Below are positions 3,198 to 11,089 of a DNA stretch of 11,585 nucleotides, piece after piece. Numbering within the stretch: position 1 is the stretch's first letter; every line of letters begins with the position of its first letter. The notes below the pieces were generated by a model that saw only the letters and a program-made list of their open reading frames with translations, was not told where the DNA came from and searched no databases. The stretch comes from Candidatus Poseidoniaceae archaeon. GTDB taxonomy: Archaea > Thermoplasmatota > Poseidoniia > Poseidoniales > Poseidoniaceae. A program made the translations under genes and the position numbers. The stretch is from positions 16,587-28,171 of the forward strand of contig DUKP01000059.1 of the NCBI GenBank assembly GCA_013329295.1. Direction: 5' to 3'.

Positions 3198-4448
3198 TTA
3201 CAGATTTTGAAGTCTTGAATCGTCAACCCATTCATCCCAACTAGAATCGAATCCAACGTAATGAATTAGATAATTATCGCCTTTGACTTCGCGAATTAAT
3301 CCATCCCACCAACTACCTTTCCATTCTACTTTTACCTGCTGTCCTGCAGCATAATCAGATTTGTTAAATGGGTGGTCTTGTGGTCTAATTTCCCAACCTG
3401 TAGGGCCTACAATGTAAATCGTATTATTTGTCTCAACTCTAGCAGTTGCTCTATTATCATAAGTCATGCTCAAAATAGCAGATGTCTTTACTTCAGTATC
3501 GCCCAATTTGGGATGCCCATGTACAAATCCATGTAATGAGTCACCGATTATTTTTGCATTTTGAATGATTACTTCAGATTTAGCTTCAAAGGGTTGAACC
3601 ATTATTTTTGCAAGATCCTTATAGTTCAATTCTGAATCCATTGAAATTCCCATTTCGTTAAACATTTCTTGAGCTTCAGAAACGTCTAATGGATCACCCA
3701 TCTGTGTTAAAATTTCGAATAATTTGCTAGCATGAATAGTTCCTGAATTATTTTCGTCAAATACCTTAAACGAATCAATCAATTCTTGTTCTTCTTTCGA
3801 GATTTGTTCAACATAGGCTTGAGTCGCTTCTGAATCTGGTTGTTTAGCAATTCTTGAAGGAGGTACTCCAGACTCAACATCACCATCATCGAAGTGTATC
3901 ATATAGGTGTGGTGTGGTTGTACTTCAGCGATTTTACCTGGGAAATAAGTGCCATAGTTTTTCCAGTTAACTAATACTCTGTCTCCCTTGTTCAATGCAT
4001 CATCCGCACGGCGAATATTTCTTGGCCCATCTCCAATAAGCAAACCTTGCTTTGATTCTACACCACTACTCTTTGGTACATCTACATCATAACTTCCATC
4101 ATCATTTATCTTAGTAACAGTACATCTATCTAGCCATCGTTCATTTGTCGGACTGAAGTATTCGACATGCGTACCAACTTCTAATTCAGGAATTATTGGT
4201 GATTGTATCATTTCTTCGACTTGAACACTAGTCTGATTTTTGTTAACCATCCCTAAGCGTTCCAATGCAGTTATTACTGCATTTGTAACTGCATCAACAT
4301 CATTGTTAATTACTGTATTATGAACAACATCTCCACCAACTACTGAATCTTGCATATTCAAAGTCTGACTAGCCTTTGGAGGTGCAGGAATCCATTCGGA
4401 ACCACTCCACATAAATTTACCATCGGGACTGTAAATAGGTTCTGACAT
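3198..4448 (-). CDS. multidomain protein: Tudor-like repeats, calmodulin-like EF-hand pair, C-terminal chromo-barrel/Tudor-knot
   Basis: From the first ATG (4448) this is 416 residues with no signal peptide or membrane helix, so probably cytosolic. The frame runs upstream to a TTG at 4502, but that start would overlap the RND gene, and MSEPIYSPDGK looks like a natural N terminus. Parts in order: a DGKFMWSGSEW motif (10-19), similar to short WxGxxW modules; a QDSVVGGDV segment (33-41); two Tudor/agenet-like barrels (about 89-147 and 154-200, the latter with GDRVLVNWK and MIHFDDGD); an EF-hand pair (217-285), whose first loop runs from Asp231 to position 12, which is Lys242 instead of Glu, while the second loop is degenerate; an unrecognised beta-rich region (291-350) with GFVHGHPKLGD; and a C-terminal barrel (367-416) ending in YLIHYVGFDSSWDEWV, which strongly resembles the chromo-barrel of MOF/MRG15. 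The likely role is ligand or peptide binding. No enzyme motif is seen, and function is unknown. Confidence 0.85.
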   Translation of the reverse strand: MSEPIYSPDGKFMWSGSEWIPAPPKASQTLNMQDSVVGGDVVHNTVINNDVDAVTNAVITALERLGMVNKNQTSVQVEEMIQSPIIPELEVGTHVEYFSPTNERWLDRCTVTKINDDGSYDVDVPKSSGVESKQGLLIGDGPRNIRRADDALNKGDRVLVNWKNYGTYFPGKIAEVQPHHTYMIHFDDGDVESGVPPSRIAKQPDSEATQAYVEQISKEEQELIDSFKVFDENNSGTIHASKLFEILTQMGDPLDVSEAQEMFNEMGISMDSELNYKDLAKIMVQPFEAKSEVIIQNAKIIGDSLHGFVHGHPKLGDTEVKTSAILSMTYDNRATARVETNNTIYIVGPTGWEIRPQDHPFNKSDYAAGQQVKVEWKGSWWDGLIREVKGDNYLIHYVGFDSSWDEWVDDSRLQNL

Positions 4449-4491
4449 AAATAGTCTAAATCGATTAATTAAAAAGAGATTTTGAAGAAAA

Positions 4492-6888
4492 TCAATCTTC
4501 AATTAAATCGTCTTTGTTATTGTTCTTCTTTACTGGAAATAACTTATCCATCCATTTTGGCGACCACCAATTTGCCTTGCCCATAAGCCTCATTGTTGCT
4601 GGGACTACTAGCGCCCTAACTATTGTTGCATCTAGAAGAATTGCCAATGCTAAACCAAATCCTATTTGCTTTAGTATTACTACTGAAGATAATCCAAATG
4701 CACTGAATACGACTACCATAATAGCTGCAGCACCAGTAATCAAACGGCCTGTTTTCTGAAGTCCATTTGCGACTGCAAGTGTATTATCTCCTGTACGCTC
4801 CCATTCTTCATGAATTCTAGAAAGCATCAAAACTTCATAGTCCATTGATAAACCAAATACAATACAAAATAGAATTATTGGATTTGTTGTTTCAATTGGT
4901 TGGGGTGTAAAGTTTAGTAATTCAGCTCCATTACCCCATTGGAAAACAAATACCAGCATACCAAATGACGCTGAAACAGATAAAATATTCATTATAATCG
5001 CCTTAATTGGAATTATTACACTTCTAACTTGAATAAATATGAGTAGAATGGTTGCGACTAGAATAAATGTTATCGCAATCGGAAGATTATCGATAATCGC
5101 ATCAAGAACATCTAAACTGTATGCTGCAAACCCGGCAACCATTAGAACTCCATCATCTCCAGTGTTTAATTCTGATAGTAATTCTCCTCTTTCTGACCTA
5201 ACGTCCGATACAAAATCCCTGCTGCTTTCTCCAGTGATAGTTCCTGTCAGTGAAAATATGACAAAAGTAACATTTTCAGAGATAAATTGGTCTCTAAGAT
5301 ATTCTCGGCTAGCAATAGTATCATTATCTAAAAATTCATCAGGAGTTTGCCAAAACTGGAGTACTTCTGATTCACTCATATTTTCACTAGGCAACGCAAA
5401 TCCTGAAGCATTAATTACTCGATCATCATCTAAATAATTCTTCATCCAACGATACATTGTAACCAGATTATTTTCTTCAAGAGGGTCTTCTCCATCAAAG
5501 TCGATTACAATCATTGCTCGATTAACTGCACCTTCTGGCCATTTTTCATCTATTAACTCAAAGCCTATTCTGGTTTCATCATCAGGAGGTAATGCATCTC
5601 TTGAAGCAATAGAAAAATCAGCCTGTAAAAATGGTAAACCCGCACCTAATAGAATGACGAGTGTAGGAATCAATACGGCCCATGGACGTTTCATTACAAA
5701 ATTAGCAATCCTTGCCCATGCTCCGTCTTCTTTCTCTCCTTCAGTAGAAAATGCAAATTTGATTTTATTAGGAATTCTAAACGGCTTTTTTCTTATCGGC
5801 AACTTCAACAAAAATACATCTTTATCTAATTTTGTTCCTAAAATGACCAAGATTGCTGGTAACACAATAATAGAGAATAGCATGGCTATGCTCACTGCTA
5901 ATGTTCCTCCAATTCCTAAACTTGGAAGTCCAGTATTTTCGAAGAAAAGCATACCCATTAAGCCAATTGCAACAGTTATTCCGCTGAAAAATACTGCTTT
6001 ACCAGCTGTTGCAACTGTCATTGCAATTGAAGTTCGAGAATCTCTGCCATGACCCAATTCCTCTCTGAATCTGTATACCATAAAGAGGGAATAATCAACC
6101 GATACTCCTATTCCTATCAGTGTAATTATGTTAAGCGCATATTGGGTTACATCGGTGATATTGGAAAGCCAAATGGTCACACCCATGGCTGAAATGACCG
6201 TCAGCATAGCAACTCCAATAGGTAATATTGCAGCAACTATAGTGCCAAAAACTATGCCTAATATAATCAGTGACAAAGGCCCTGAAATTAGTTCTGCTTT
6301 GATTAAATCATCTTGAATTCTAGAATCAAAAATAACATCGATTGCTAAATCTCCTGTACGCCATGAATTAAATTCAGAATCTACATCAATATTTTCCCAG
6401 TTTTCATCATAAATTGCCTTTGCTTCTTTCCGTTCTATAGAAATTTTCACTTTGTTTTTAGCCCAAAAACCATCTTCATCTTGGTAGACAAAATTGTCTC
6501 GTTTTTCTCCAGAAGTTTCCCAAGAGTACTGTATTGTGACATCATCCATAACTGCAAAGTCGGCTAAAGCAGAAATCACCGCTGCTCGCCATTCTGGAGA
6601 AGAATCGTTTAGATTCGGATGGTTAATCAATAGAATGAAGTTCTCTGACTTGTTTCCTTCATCTTCAGATGCAAAAGCACTCTTTTGCAAGTCCCCTGCC
6701 TCAACAGATTCTAGATCTCCCTCGCCCCAAGATTCTGCCCAGTTTGGCCCCATAGAAATTAGAGAACCTAACATCAAACAAGACAAAATTCCGATAATTA
6801 GAACTTTTTTATGGTGGTCATGGACTGCTTCTCCTAATTTGTAAAATGCTCTACCTTCAAGCATTTTTGGGTCTGTAGACCACTCCAT
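4492..6888 (-). CDS. MmpL-type RND superfamily exporter
   Basis: A 798-residue, 12-helix membrane protein with the internal duplication of RND transporters. TM1 is about 28-48, TM2-6 about 198-352, TM7 about 402-420, and TM8-12 about 601-763. Large extracytoplasmic loops lie between TM1 and TM2 (about 49-197) and between TM7 and TM8 (about 422-600). Each half carries the Asp-Tyr pair of the MmpL proton relay: GVSVDYSLFMVYRFREEL (Asp265-Tyr266) and FGLSMDYEVLMLSR (Asp683-Tyr684). TAGKAVFFSGITVAIGL (294-310) is a classic MMPL/SSD-type segment. MmpL and HpnN relatives export lipids or hydrophobic compounds using the proton gradient. In a cell with one membrane it would act without periplasmic or outer-membrane partners, and none is encoded nearby. 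It heads the minus-strand gene run; the next gene begins 43 bp downstream. The ATG at 6888 faces the divergent promoter. The cargo is not predictable from sequence. Confidence 0.92.
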   Translation of the reverse strand: MEWSTDPKMLEGRAFYKLGEAVHDHHKKVLIIGILSCLMLGSLISMGPNWAESWGEGDLESVEAGDLQKSAFASEDEGNKSENFILLINHPNLNDSSPEWRAAVISALADFAVMDDVTIQYSWETSGEKRDNFVYQDEDGFWAKNKVKISIERKEAKAIYDENWENIDVDSEFNSWRTGDLAIDVIFDSRIQDDLIKAELISGPLSLIILGIVFGTIVAAILPIGVAMLTVISAMGVTIWLSNITDVTQYALNIITLIGIGVSVDYSLFMVYRFREELGHGRDSRTSIAMTVATAGKAVFFSGITVAIGLMGMLFFENTGLPSLGIGGTLAVSIAMLFSIIVLPAILVILGTKLDKDVFLLKLPIRKKPFRIPNKIKFAFSTEGEKEDGAWARIANFVMKRPWAVLIPTLVILLGAGLPFLQADFSIASRDALPPDDETRIGFELIDEKWPEGAVNRAMIVIDFDGEDPLEENNLVTMYRWMKNYLDDDRVINASGFALPSENMSESEVLQFWQTPDEFLDNDTIASREYLRDQFISENVTFVIFSLTGTITGESSRDFVSDVRSERGELLSELNTGDDGVLMVAGFAAYSLDVLDAIIDNLPIAITFILVATILLIFIQVRSVIIPIKAIIMNILSVSASFGMLVFVFQWGNGAELLNFTPQPIETTNPIILFCIVFGLSMDYEVLMLSRIHEEWERTGDNTLAVANGLQKTGRLITGAAAIMVVVFSAFGLSSVVILKQIGFGLALAILLDATIVRALVVPATMRLMGKANWWSPKWMDKLFPVKKNNNKDDLIED

Positions 6889-9180: not shown

Positions 9181-9467
9181 AGTGGTAACTTCTTGCTTTT
9201 GTCAGCAAGTTTGACAGATTCTGTTAATACCCTTGGCTCGAATCCAATACTAACCAACGAAATTATCCACCAGCCAAGAGATAGTAAAAATGTTGAAATT
9301 AGCATCAATAGACAAAGGAACACAACAATATTACCTCCTGATAATTGCCATGACCACCATCCAGAAAATATCATTCCTAATATGAAAAATATTCTTGCAG
9401 CTTCACTTGGAGTTGACCAACCGCGATGGTCTTTCCTAGGTGCAAATAGATACTCCATGAGGCTCAT
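9159..9467 (-). CDS. small two-helix membrane protein, unknown function
   Basis: A 102-residue protein that I do not recognise. It has a basic N terminus (FAPRKDHRGWSTPSEAAR, about 8-25), a first hydrophobic helix about 26-42 containing the run SGWWSWQL, a short GGN turn, a second helix about 47-73 rich in Leu and Ile, and a basic C-terminal tail (KLADKSKKL). The ordering of basic ends around two helices suggests a hairpin with both ends in the cytoplasm. The minus frame is preferred over the plus-strand open frame at 9193-9480 because only it gives a coherent membrane protein with basic flanks; the plus frame encodes a low-complexity polar string. An alternative start is Met4 at 9458. Its stop codon lies inside the ALDH gene, giving a 22-bp tail-to-tail overlap, and it is divergent from the guide RNA/PrsW unit. 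Confidence 0.68.
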   Translation of the reverse strand: MSLMEYLFAPRKDHRGWSTPSEAARIFFILGMIFSGWWSWQLSGGNIVVFLCLLMLISTFLLSLGWWIISLVSIGFEPRVLTESVKLADKSKKLPLHSFRKP

Positions 9468-9522
9468 AGTGACAAAATAATTTTTGTTACCATAAAAATG
9501 CGTGTATATTAGTAAACTTCCG

Positions 9523-9532
9523 ATTAATTATT
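9523..9532 (+). promoter_or_regulatory. candidate TATA element for the guide RNA / PrsW unit
   Basis: ATTAATTATT is centred about 27 bases upstream of the proposed 5' end of the C/D-box RNA stem (9555), the usual spacing of an archaeal TATA box to the transcription start. Other AT-rich runs lie nearby (GTATATT around 9504-9510 and GAAATAAA at 9533-9540), so the exact element is uncertain. Confidence 0.35.
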
Positions 9533-9554
9533 GAAATAAAACCCATAGGGTCAA

Positions 9555-9625
9555 TCCCGCAGTGATGATTGCTTTGGCCGACTGCTGATTTTTTCAGTGA
9601 CGAGTGATGGGCGAACTGAGCGGGA
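9555..9625 (+). ncRNA. probable C/D-box guide RNA (2'-O-methylation guide)
   Basis: A 71-base segment holds every element of an archaeal C/D sRNA in order: closing stem TCCCGC (9555-9560); C box GTGATGA (9562-9568); a 16-nt D' guide; D' box CTGA (9585-9588); an 8-nt spacer; C' box GTGACGA (9597-9603, one change from consensus); a 12-nt D guide GTGATGGGCGAA (9604-9615), which is the canonical archaeal length; D box CTGA (9616-9619); and closing stem GCGGGA (9620-9625), which pairs fully with the first arm. Such RNAs bind L7Ae, Nop5 and fibrillarin to direct 2'-O-methylation of rRNA or tRNA. From memory of archaeal 23S rRNA, the D guide pairs over 11 positions (one G-U) with UUCGCCCAUUA in helix 92, which would put the methyl group near E. 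coli C2558. The D' target is unclear. It ends 24 nt before the PrsW start, so co-transcription followed by processing is possible. Confidence 0.75.
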
Positions 9626-9649
9626 CCAATTAGAAAAAAAGGGAAGAAT

Positions 9650-11089
9650 ATGCAAGGAGTGCCACAAACCGGTTTATCTCCTGCTCCAAATAATTTGTAT
9701 CTATCACAAAAATCTTCACCGTGGAAAACTATTTTCTCGATGCTTACATCAGTAATGATTCTATTTTTCTTTGTCCAGATTTTTGTTGTTGTTGTTTTTG
9801 GTTTTGTGGATGGAGATATGGATGGGGATTTAGGGCCAATGGATCCTTTATTGGTTATTTTTGGCACTCTTTGCTCAACACCATTTTTGTTATTTTTCCT
9901 ATTGCTTCGCAAACCAAAACTTGCTCACATAGTAAGATTAGATTCAAGCAGTAATGGTAGTAATGCGCATTACATTACTCCAGGGACACTGATTCAATCA
10001 CCTACACCGACTATTTTACAGCATCACTTAATCCATAATACCGCACCACTTGAAATGCCAAGTGTCAAACAATTGTGGCTTATTTTCATCACAGGCACTA
10101 TAATATCAAGCATTTGCATGCTACCGTTATTAGTTATGGGGATTAATTCTTTAACAATTCTATTATTCTTAATTATAGCACTACCGGCATGGATTATCGG
10201 ATTTTCAACTCCAGTATTCGCTTGGTGGTCGACTTCAAACGAATATTTTGGACTCAGTACTACAAGAAGACAAGGAGAATGGATGCTTATTGCGGGAATG
10301 TTGTCAACCTTACCAGCATTACTAATCAATTCTCTAATCTCTCCAATAATTATCAATTTACTTGGACTATCTGTCACTAATGAATATAGTCTAGGTTATG
10401 GAATGATACTATTCCTTTCTGCACCAATTGGCGAAGAAATATCAAAAGCGTTGGCAGTTCTATTTCTTGCCAGATTTATTGATTCCCCTAAACGAGGTTT
10501 CCAAATTGGTTTTTCTGTTGGATTGGGTTTTGCATTACTTGAAAATATGATTTATATCTTGAGTTCAATATTGAATGGCGAAGGTGCCGCAATAAGTTTC
10601 GTATTTACTGCTGTCCTAAGAGCGATTGGTTCAATTCCAGGTCACGCTACTTGGACTGCTATTTCGGGATATGCAATTGGCAAATACGTTATCAACAAAC
10701 GGTGGCATATACGAAGTTTAGGAGTTTTTGATAAATCTAAAACTCAAAAAGAGAGTCAATGGATCTTATTCGATGGAAAATCTGGCCAACCAATAATTTC
10801 TTCAAAGACTCAAAAATTACCACGTCTACCAAAATGGCTTTCTGCTGGTCAAGAAAAAATGGTAAGGATTACCAGTAATCCAATCAAAGCAGTAGCAATA
10901 GCAATCATTTGTCACGCGATTTGGAATGGCTCCTTATGGACTGTAGGCGTTCTTTTGAAAGATACTTCAGTAATAATTCAATTTTTGGTAAATTTACTAT
11001 TAATTGTAGTATTAATTGTATTGTTATGGTTTGTTCTGAGACGACTTATTCCATTTGCATTGCTGGAAAACACTCATCAACAACAATAA
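9650..11089 (+). CDS. PrsW-family intramembrane protease (glutamic/metallo type)
   Basis: A 479-residue polytopic membrane protein with the conserved core of the PrsW family, whose Bacillus founder cleaves the anti-sigma factor RsiW within the membrane. Core motifs: APIGEEISKAL (258-268) with Glu262, Glu263 and Lys266; GFALLENMIY (293-302) with Glu298, Asn299 and Tyr302; GHATWTAISGYAIG (331-344) with His332; and ICHAIWNG (420-427) with His422 and Asn426. These are the expected catalytic or metal-site residues, all present. Differences from compact PrsW: a longer N-terminal part with a first helix (about 28-52), an acidic GDMDGDLG loop (55-62) and a second helix (66-86); an extramembrane linker (about 88-138); and a 60-70-residue soluble insert (about 345-410) between the last two core motifs. 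GGGAAG at 9641-9646 precedes the ATG. The substrate is unknown, and no sigma/anti-sigma partner is expected in an archaeon. It follows the guide RNA in the same direction. Confidence 0.85.
   Translation: MQGVPQTGLSPAPNNLYLSQKSSPWKTIFSMLTSVMILFFFVQIFVVVVFGFVDGDMDGDLGPMDPLLVIFGTLCSTPFLLFFLLLRKPKLAHIVRLDSSSNGSNAHYITPGTLIQSPTPTILQHHLIHNTAPLEMPSVKQLWLIFITGTIISSICMLPLLVMGINSLTILLFLIIALPAWIIGFSTPVFAWWSTSNEYFGLSTTRRQGEWMLIAGMLSTLPALLINSLISPIIINLLGLSVTNEYSLGYGMILFLSAPIGEEISKALAVLFLARFIDSPKRGFQIGFSVGLGFALLENMIYILSSILNGEGAAISFVFTAVLRAIGSIPGHATWTAISGYAIGKYVINKRWHIRSLGVFDKSKTQKESQWILFDGKSGQPIISSKTQKLPRLPKWLSAGQEKMVRITSNPIKAVAIAIICHAIWNGSLWTVGVLLKDTSVIIQFLVNLLLIVVLIVLLWFVLRRLIPFALLENTHQQQ

Follow-up and report, generated by a model that had tools for sequence, protein, structure and literature searches.

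A small RNA of an uncultured ocean archaeon that appears to guide methylation of the ribosome, most likely at C1402 of the decoding site

Introduction

Between positions 9555 and 9625 of the window (the whole stretch of 11,585 nucleotides analysed here, G000:C138:16587-28171, from a MAG, ~77% complete, of a Poseidoniaceae archaeon of Marine Group II) lies a short segment that had been proposed, from its letters, to be an unannotated C/D-box guide RNA aimed at the stem of the A loop in 23S rRNA. The question that this locus raises is whether such an RNA is encoded there and, if so, which nucleotide of the ribosome it would mark. Comparison with related genomes makes it very probable that 9555-9625 encodes a box C/D sRNA, one that would chiefly guide 2'-O-methylation of C1402 in 16S rRNA and possibly also that of C2558 in 23S rRNA.

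Anatomy of the RNA

The features of the RNA and of the gene that follows it are these:

9555..9560, + strand: closing stem, 5' arm TCCCGC, which pairs with 9620-9625 and covaries
9562..9568, + strand: C box GTGATGA, read directly
9569..9584, + strand: D' guide region TTGCTTTGGCCGACTG, which varies between species and is without a convincing rRNA target
9585..9588, + strand: D' box CTGA, which is CTGT in many of the relatives listed
9589..9596, + strand: D'-C' spacer of 8 nt, read directly
9597..9603, + strand: C' box GTGACGA, one letter off consensus
9604..9615, + strand: D guide GTGATGGGCGAA, 12 nt, complementary to 16S 1400-1408 and 23S 2554-2564 (E. coli numbering)
9616..9619, + strand: D box CTGA, read directly
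9620..9625, + strand: closing stem, 3' arm GCGGGA, from direct reading and covariation
9650..11089, + strand: PrsW-family intramembrane protease gene (PF13367, E 1.5e-26)

The 6-bp stem, the C and D boxes, the D' box, the 8-nt spacer and the 12-nt D guide of the original prediction are thus all present in canonical order, as is its near-consensus C', the letters of which are identical in 53 of the 68 distinct sequences that retain a C' box. The segment is also richer in GC than its flanks, as had been claimed, with a GC fraction of 0.47 (9550-9649) against 0.29 (9450-9549) and 0.30 (9700-9799) in overlapping 100-base windows. The window RNA therefore has what characterises a box C/D sRNA, namely C and D boxes with a closing stem, an internal C'/D' motif and a guide of ~12 nt upstream of D; the case for a C/D guide RNA is a strong one, given the conservation of boxes, stem and guide, the complementarity to helix 92 and the presence of fibrillarin and Nop5 in relatives.

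The D' half is likely structural or degenerate. When the D' guide was scanned against the 23S and 16S of relatives the best matches differed among species, and its position N+6 is C, G or T among relatives; for these two reasons no D' target is claimed. A match of 13 pairs between a D' variant and the 5' end of 23S (L052-L054) was set aside, being absent from the window's variant and from those genomes' own variants. In two further loci, L264 and L254, there is a resemblance between the D' half (GTTCAGCCTT) and Rfam sR60, with E values of 2.7e-6 and 7.1e-6 that fall short of the gathering score; sRNAs may exchange their guide halves.

Conservation in relatives

A BLAST search with a 105-base query found the sRNA in 31 of the 34 other genomes of the same genus at E <= 2.1e-19 (G014, G024 and G033 were without a match), and in the sister family Thalassarchaeaceae the D-guide half has a match at E < 0.01 in 21 of 24 genomes (those without one being G035, G042 and G049). 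This goes well past what chance would produce; boxes, stem and guide are conserved, as was expected of a genuine RNA. Across the phylum a C'-guide-D pattern that permitted only R/Y at N+2, N+8 and N+10 occurs in 118 of 389 genomes and its reversed control in none; a relaxed form with N+1, N+2 and N+8 to N+12 free and GGGCG fixed occurs in 173 of the 389, with a control match in one, and the variants reported for it are those among the matches listed. A C-box/guide/D-box pattern gave at least 115 stretches in a one-genome-per-species collection, 114 of them archaeal by title; this pattern fixed the guide letters, and conservation of the guide was judged from BLAST and the two C'-guide-D patterns. 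The sole bacterial title among the 115 stretches listed, an Undibacterium (L155), is taken as a chance match. Matches elsewhere to the 18 nt of C' plus guide are likewise regarded as coincidence, the eight that were fetched (L032-L039) being coding-like and located at an overlapping stop/start.

The closing stem covaries. After removal of L155 and of L022, which was anchored on an upstream TGATGA, 573 of 612 cells pair (94%) among 102 distinct sequences, compared with 29-62% in slid registers. For most loci the search pattern dictated the 3' letters of the two innermost pairs; the outer four pairs were free of it, and there 369 of 408 cells pair, with exchanges of the kinds CG/TA/TG/AT and CG/GC.

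Within the D guide, N+2 to N+11 reads UGAUGGGCGA in 107 of the 118 genomes with the first C'-guide-D pattern and departs from it in 11, while N+12 may be G, T, A or C and N+1 may be A, T, G or C among relatives. The borders of guide conservation thus coincide roughly with the place at which box C/D RNPs cease to read, and high methylation has been described at duplexes of 8-10 bp (PMC7089733, citing Yang 2016, in the part of the text available).

Two of the proteins that such an RNA would need were found in relatives: 49 of the order's 59 genomes have fibrillarin, which is adjoined by Nop5 at L202 (G003), the sole locus examined, whereas the window's own MAG gave no match to fibrillarin, nor to 23S or 16S rRNA. 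To our knowledge L7Ae is universal in archaea.

Two complementarities in ribosomal RNA

Because the MAG itself is without a 23S or 16S match, the complementarity of the guide was tested on the rRNA of relatives, and it is present there in both subunits. The best 23S site is UUCGCCCAUUA in helix 92, with 11 contiguous pairs, one of them a wobble, and N+5 on C2558; the predicted pairing of 11 positions is thereby confirmed, and the site is identical in 22 of the 23 genomes where helix 92 was read. The best 16S site is CGCCCGUCA, with nine pairs (N+3 to N+11), one of them a wobble, and N+5 on C1402, and it is identical in all 13 archaeal genomes read (12 of the order plus G059). Both positions were checked in E. 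coli numbering. The original prediction of C2558 as the target thus stands as far as the helix-92 pairing and the position of N+5 are concerned, and is incomplete in having missed a second, near-equal site at C1402. For f16, f17, f33, f38, f45 and f51 (handles for families of the phylum) the 16S letters were assumed from their wide conservation, the E. coli letters being identical. The rRNA loci of G058 (L031 for 23S, L236 for 16S) look bacterial and were excluded; both lie on contig C25 of an archaeal MAG, which is likely to reflect contamination.

Calculated duplex energies for the window guide are -17.4 kcal/mol on 16S and -17.1 kcal/mol on 23S. The balance is struck letter by letter, as the A at N+2 does not pair with 16S C1399 and the U at N+8 only wobbles with G1405, both of them fitting 23S perfectly, whereas the G at N+10 forms a full pair with 16S and a wobble with 23S. 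Among 3000 shuffled guides a 9-bp match was found anywhere in 16S for 134, anywhere in 23S for 259 and in both for 14; since 134 of 3000 match anywhere in 16S, a chance hit on C1402 itself must be far rarer.

We infer that the RNA would be expressed and assembled into an RNP, its terminal K-turn and C'/D' K-loop binding L7Ae, Nop5 and fibrillarin, and that the main nucleotide to which the D guide (N+2 to N+11, UGAUGGGCGA) would direct methylation is C1402, in the decoding centre of 16S rRNA. In Poseidoniales this guide fits helix 92 of 23S as well, without a shift of register, and C2558 beside the A loop may be methylated or transiently opened by it.

Changes of the guide across the phylum

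The departures from the common guide bear on the choice between these two sites. With the first C'-guide-D pattern the other guides are UGACGGGCGA in seven genomes (f17, f33), UAAUGGGCGG in three (f6) and UGAUGGGCGG in one (f14); the matches listed for the relaxed pattern also include AGACGGGCGA, seen in f17, f38 and f51, AAAUGGGCGA, carried by four genomes of f16, and UGAUGGGCGC, from a single f6 genome. Guides with C at N+8 improve the pairing with 16S and break that with helix 92, the calculated energies being -18.3 kcal/mol on 16S versus -12.7 on 23S for AGACGGGCGA (f17, f38, f51) and -20.1 versus -13.5 for UGACGGGCGA (f17 g45, f33). Helix 92 is unchanged in G187, G155 and G128 (f17 g45) and in G132 (f33), all genomes with drifted guides; of the lineages with C at N+8, 23S was read for f17 g45 and f33. 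The converse is seen in G316 (f45), which keeps the usual guide and has a helix 92 that reads GUGUCCACCGAUUA, giving a duplex of -7.3 kcal/mol on 23S versus -17.4 on 16S; this is a single genome, and its 23S copy may be divergent or faulty. At that locus (L298, 1797-1860) CGGGUGUCCACCG replaces GGGUUGUUCGCCC in helix 92, the A loop being changed and the stem compensated. Overall, the complementarity to 23S is retained in most lineages seen and lost in f17 g45, f33 and G316, and the guides of f38 and f51 carry C at N+8. Since the fit to 16S persists where that to 23S is lost, in f17, f33 and f45, C1402 is the likelier primary target.

Not all changes run in that direction. The f16 guide AAAUGGGCGA gives -15.9 kcal/mol on 23S versus -12.8 on 16S, and the C/D RNAs that carry it (L314-L317) favour helix 92 over 16S and are possibly a retargeted version. 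The f6 variant combines A to G at N+2 with G to A at N+10 and is still balanced (-16.2 and -16.0 kcal/mol).

There is nearly an even chance that C1402 is the sole target and that the pairing with helix 92 is never used. The loss of only the 23S fit in f17, f33 and f45 speaks for this, as does the standing of C1402 as a known conserved site, and chance alone would give an equally good fit to helix 92 for nine of 76 possible guides competent for 16S. Against it stand the two letters that help only 23S, A at N+2 and U at N+8, which are kept in those 107 of 118 genomes (13 of the 16 matching families) while N+1 and N+12 vary; furthermore the 16S and 23S energies lie within 0.3 kcal/mol of each other for both the window guide and the doubly changed guide of f6.

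A more tentative reading, plausible if rather doubtful, is that one guide serves both subunits: a wobble-balanced guide of 10 nt, whose U at N+8 reads A or G and whose G at N+10 reads U or C, would methylate C1402 in the 30S and C2558 in the 50S subunit with near-equal affinity, a single sRNP would couple the maturation of two tRNA-binding centres, and daughter lineages would have specialised, those of the f17 type to 16S and f16 to 23S. Such dual use would explain why letters useful to 23S alone (A at N+2, U at N+8) persist alongside one that mainly serves 16S (G at N+10). It is not proven by these data, since cross-fit arises by chance in nine of 76 guides competent for 16S and in seven of 17 competent for 23S. 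If dual targeting is real, the dual, 16S-only and 23S-leaning guides of the phylum form a natural series in which target change could be studied, and they would show how a guide RNA is retargeted by way of wobble intermediates.

It is very improbable that the D guide targets just C2558 in helix 92 and that its match to 16S simply reflects sequence common to the two sites. Helix 92 does offer 10-11 contiguous pairs with one wobble, exceeding 16S, the states at N+2 and N+8 are those that fit it, its site is identical in 22 of the 23 genomes read and the f16 guides favour it. However, in f17 g45 and f33, where helix 92 is unchanged, the UGACGGGCGA guides are unable to pair with it across N+8, G316 retains the guide despite a helix 92 that no longer fits, and the G at N+10 is a wobble on 23S and a full pair on 16S; moreover, the literature on A-loop sites, in the portions available, mentions U2552, G2553 and C2556 and not C2558. 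The reading that we prefer remains a guide chiefly for C1402.

In two g7 genomes (G043:C27:126757-126778 and G057:C40:16290-16311) there is a second C'/D-like site with a guide ending in UUGGGCGUU, which is probably another sRNA.

Gene neighbourhood

The 3' end of the sRNA lies 24 nt upstream of the ATG of the PrsW-family gene, and in 123 of 155 loci a PrsW gene lies no more than 400 nt downstream in the same orientation, the proteins being as little as ~29% identical; this count includes some genomes twice, and several of the misses are short loci. That the element acts only in cis, as a K-turn leader of the PrsW gene (e.g. an L7Ae-controlled switch) and not as a trans guide, is scarcely credible for all this proximity, given that its strongest conservation is in a 10-nt guide matching rRNA, that a PrsW match is absent at L113, L147 and L164 (not titled Poseidoniales) and that processing of an sRNA out of an mRNA leader would be compatible with both observations (PMC7994747, in the excerpt available). 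The arrangement suggests that the sRNA would be cut from a leader transcript common with the PrsW gene. Upstream, the neighbour of the sRNA is an ORF of 102 aa on the opposite strand. Elsewhere in the window (3198-4502, - strand) a predicted protein has matches to an EF-hand pair and to Tudor, Agenet and Tudor-knot domains, a eukaryote-like mix that is unusual for an archaeon.

Change of architecture in the Thalassarchaeaceae

Most of the Thalassarchaeaceae sequences seen keep the D guide and the closing stem, and have a GC-rich hairpin in place of the D'/C' region. The main type of hairpin has 5-7 pairs in 27 of 28 distinct sequences and shows exchanges of whole stems (GATGCC/GGCATC, GATACC/GGTATC, GGTGCC/GGCACC), and a smaller group of five distinct sequences has a hairpin of the GCGGC/GCCGC type. 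Replacement of C'/D' by a covarying GC hairpin is seen at L042, L045-L049, L051 and other loci of the family, and a C'/D'-like form is retained at L154 (Thalassarchaeaceae) and at two g7 loci, L040 and L041.

The conserved GGAACCGCACC of this family was considered as a guide and has no consistent target in 23S or 16S. In the predicted fold it pairs with that RNA's own D guide; the conserved CCGCACC before the hairpin can do so, a possible self-lock. Archaeal C'/D' has been described as essential for function (PMC8413462, in the part available), and for that reason these RNAs constitute a natural test of whether archaeal C/D RNPs require a second K-turn.

Comparison with known guides and marks

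C1402 is known as Cm or m4Cm, and its 2'-O-methylation is recorded in E. coli, P. abyssi (as Cm1376), yeast and human (PMC7005279, in the part available). For the A loop, the sites named by Dennis et al. (PMC4644070) are U2552 and C2556, and neither C2558 nor C1402 was found in as much of its main text as was available. In bacteria the same ribose of C1402 is methylated by RsmI, a protein-only enzyme according to the source in part available; a search for RsmI (TIGR00096) was negative in all 59 genomes of the order, the control search being positive in 12 of 14 named genomes. The sRNA is thus put forward as the likely agent of C1402 methylation in Poseidoniales.

The Rfam search gave only sub-threshold C/D matches, no model passing its gathering score, and SNORD43, snR70 and sR12 were all absent from the matches at E <= 10; a literature search on Poseidoniales and snoRNA returned nothing. 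The claim that the RNA is missing from annotation is likely on the strength of these Rfam and literature searches, the only ones bearing on it. An uncultured order of ocean archaea, and the wider phylum, would thereby gain a guide RNA that Rfam does not recognise above its cut-off.

Judged by its predicted role, the window RNA corresponds to archaeal sR12 and to SNORD43/snR70 of eukaryotes and so is of a kind already known. The guide addresses the C1402-equivalent nucleotide as these RNAs do, and because none of them matched in Rfam the likeness is held to one of function only. Archaeal sR12, whose predicted target is the snR70-equivalent site (PMC3511168, in the excerpt available), is likewise a C/D sRNA aimed at this 16S nucleotide; compared by description, the window guide differs in also fitting 23S helix 92, and no closer relation is claimed. 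Eukaryotic SNORD43 (U43), snR70 and AtU43 guide the equivalent 18S cytidine, going by the sources in the part available, and homology with them is not claimed. An archaeal C/D guide with two predicted rRNA targets also has a precedent in Tte 509 (the available part of PMC4644070), both targets of which are in 16S, whereas those of the window guide would span the two subunits, each at a tRNA-binding centre. What is possibly new, then, is a single guide for both subunits, together with a sister family in which C'/D' has turned into a covarying hairpin.
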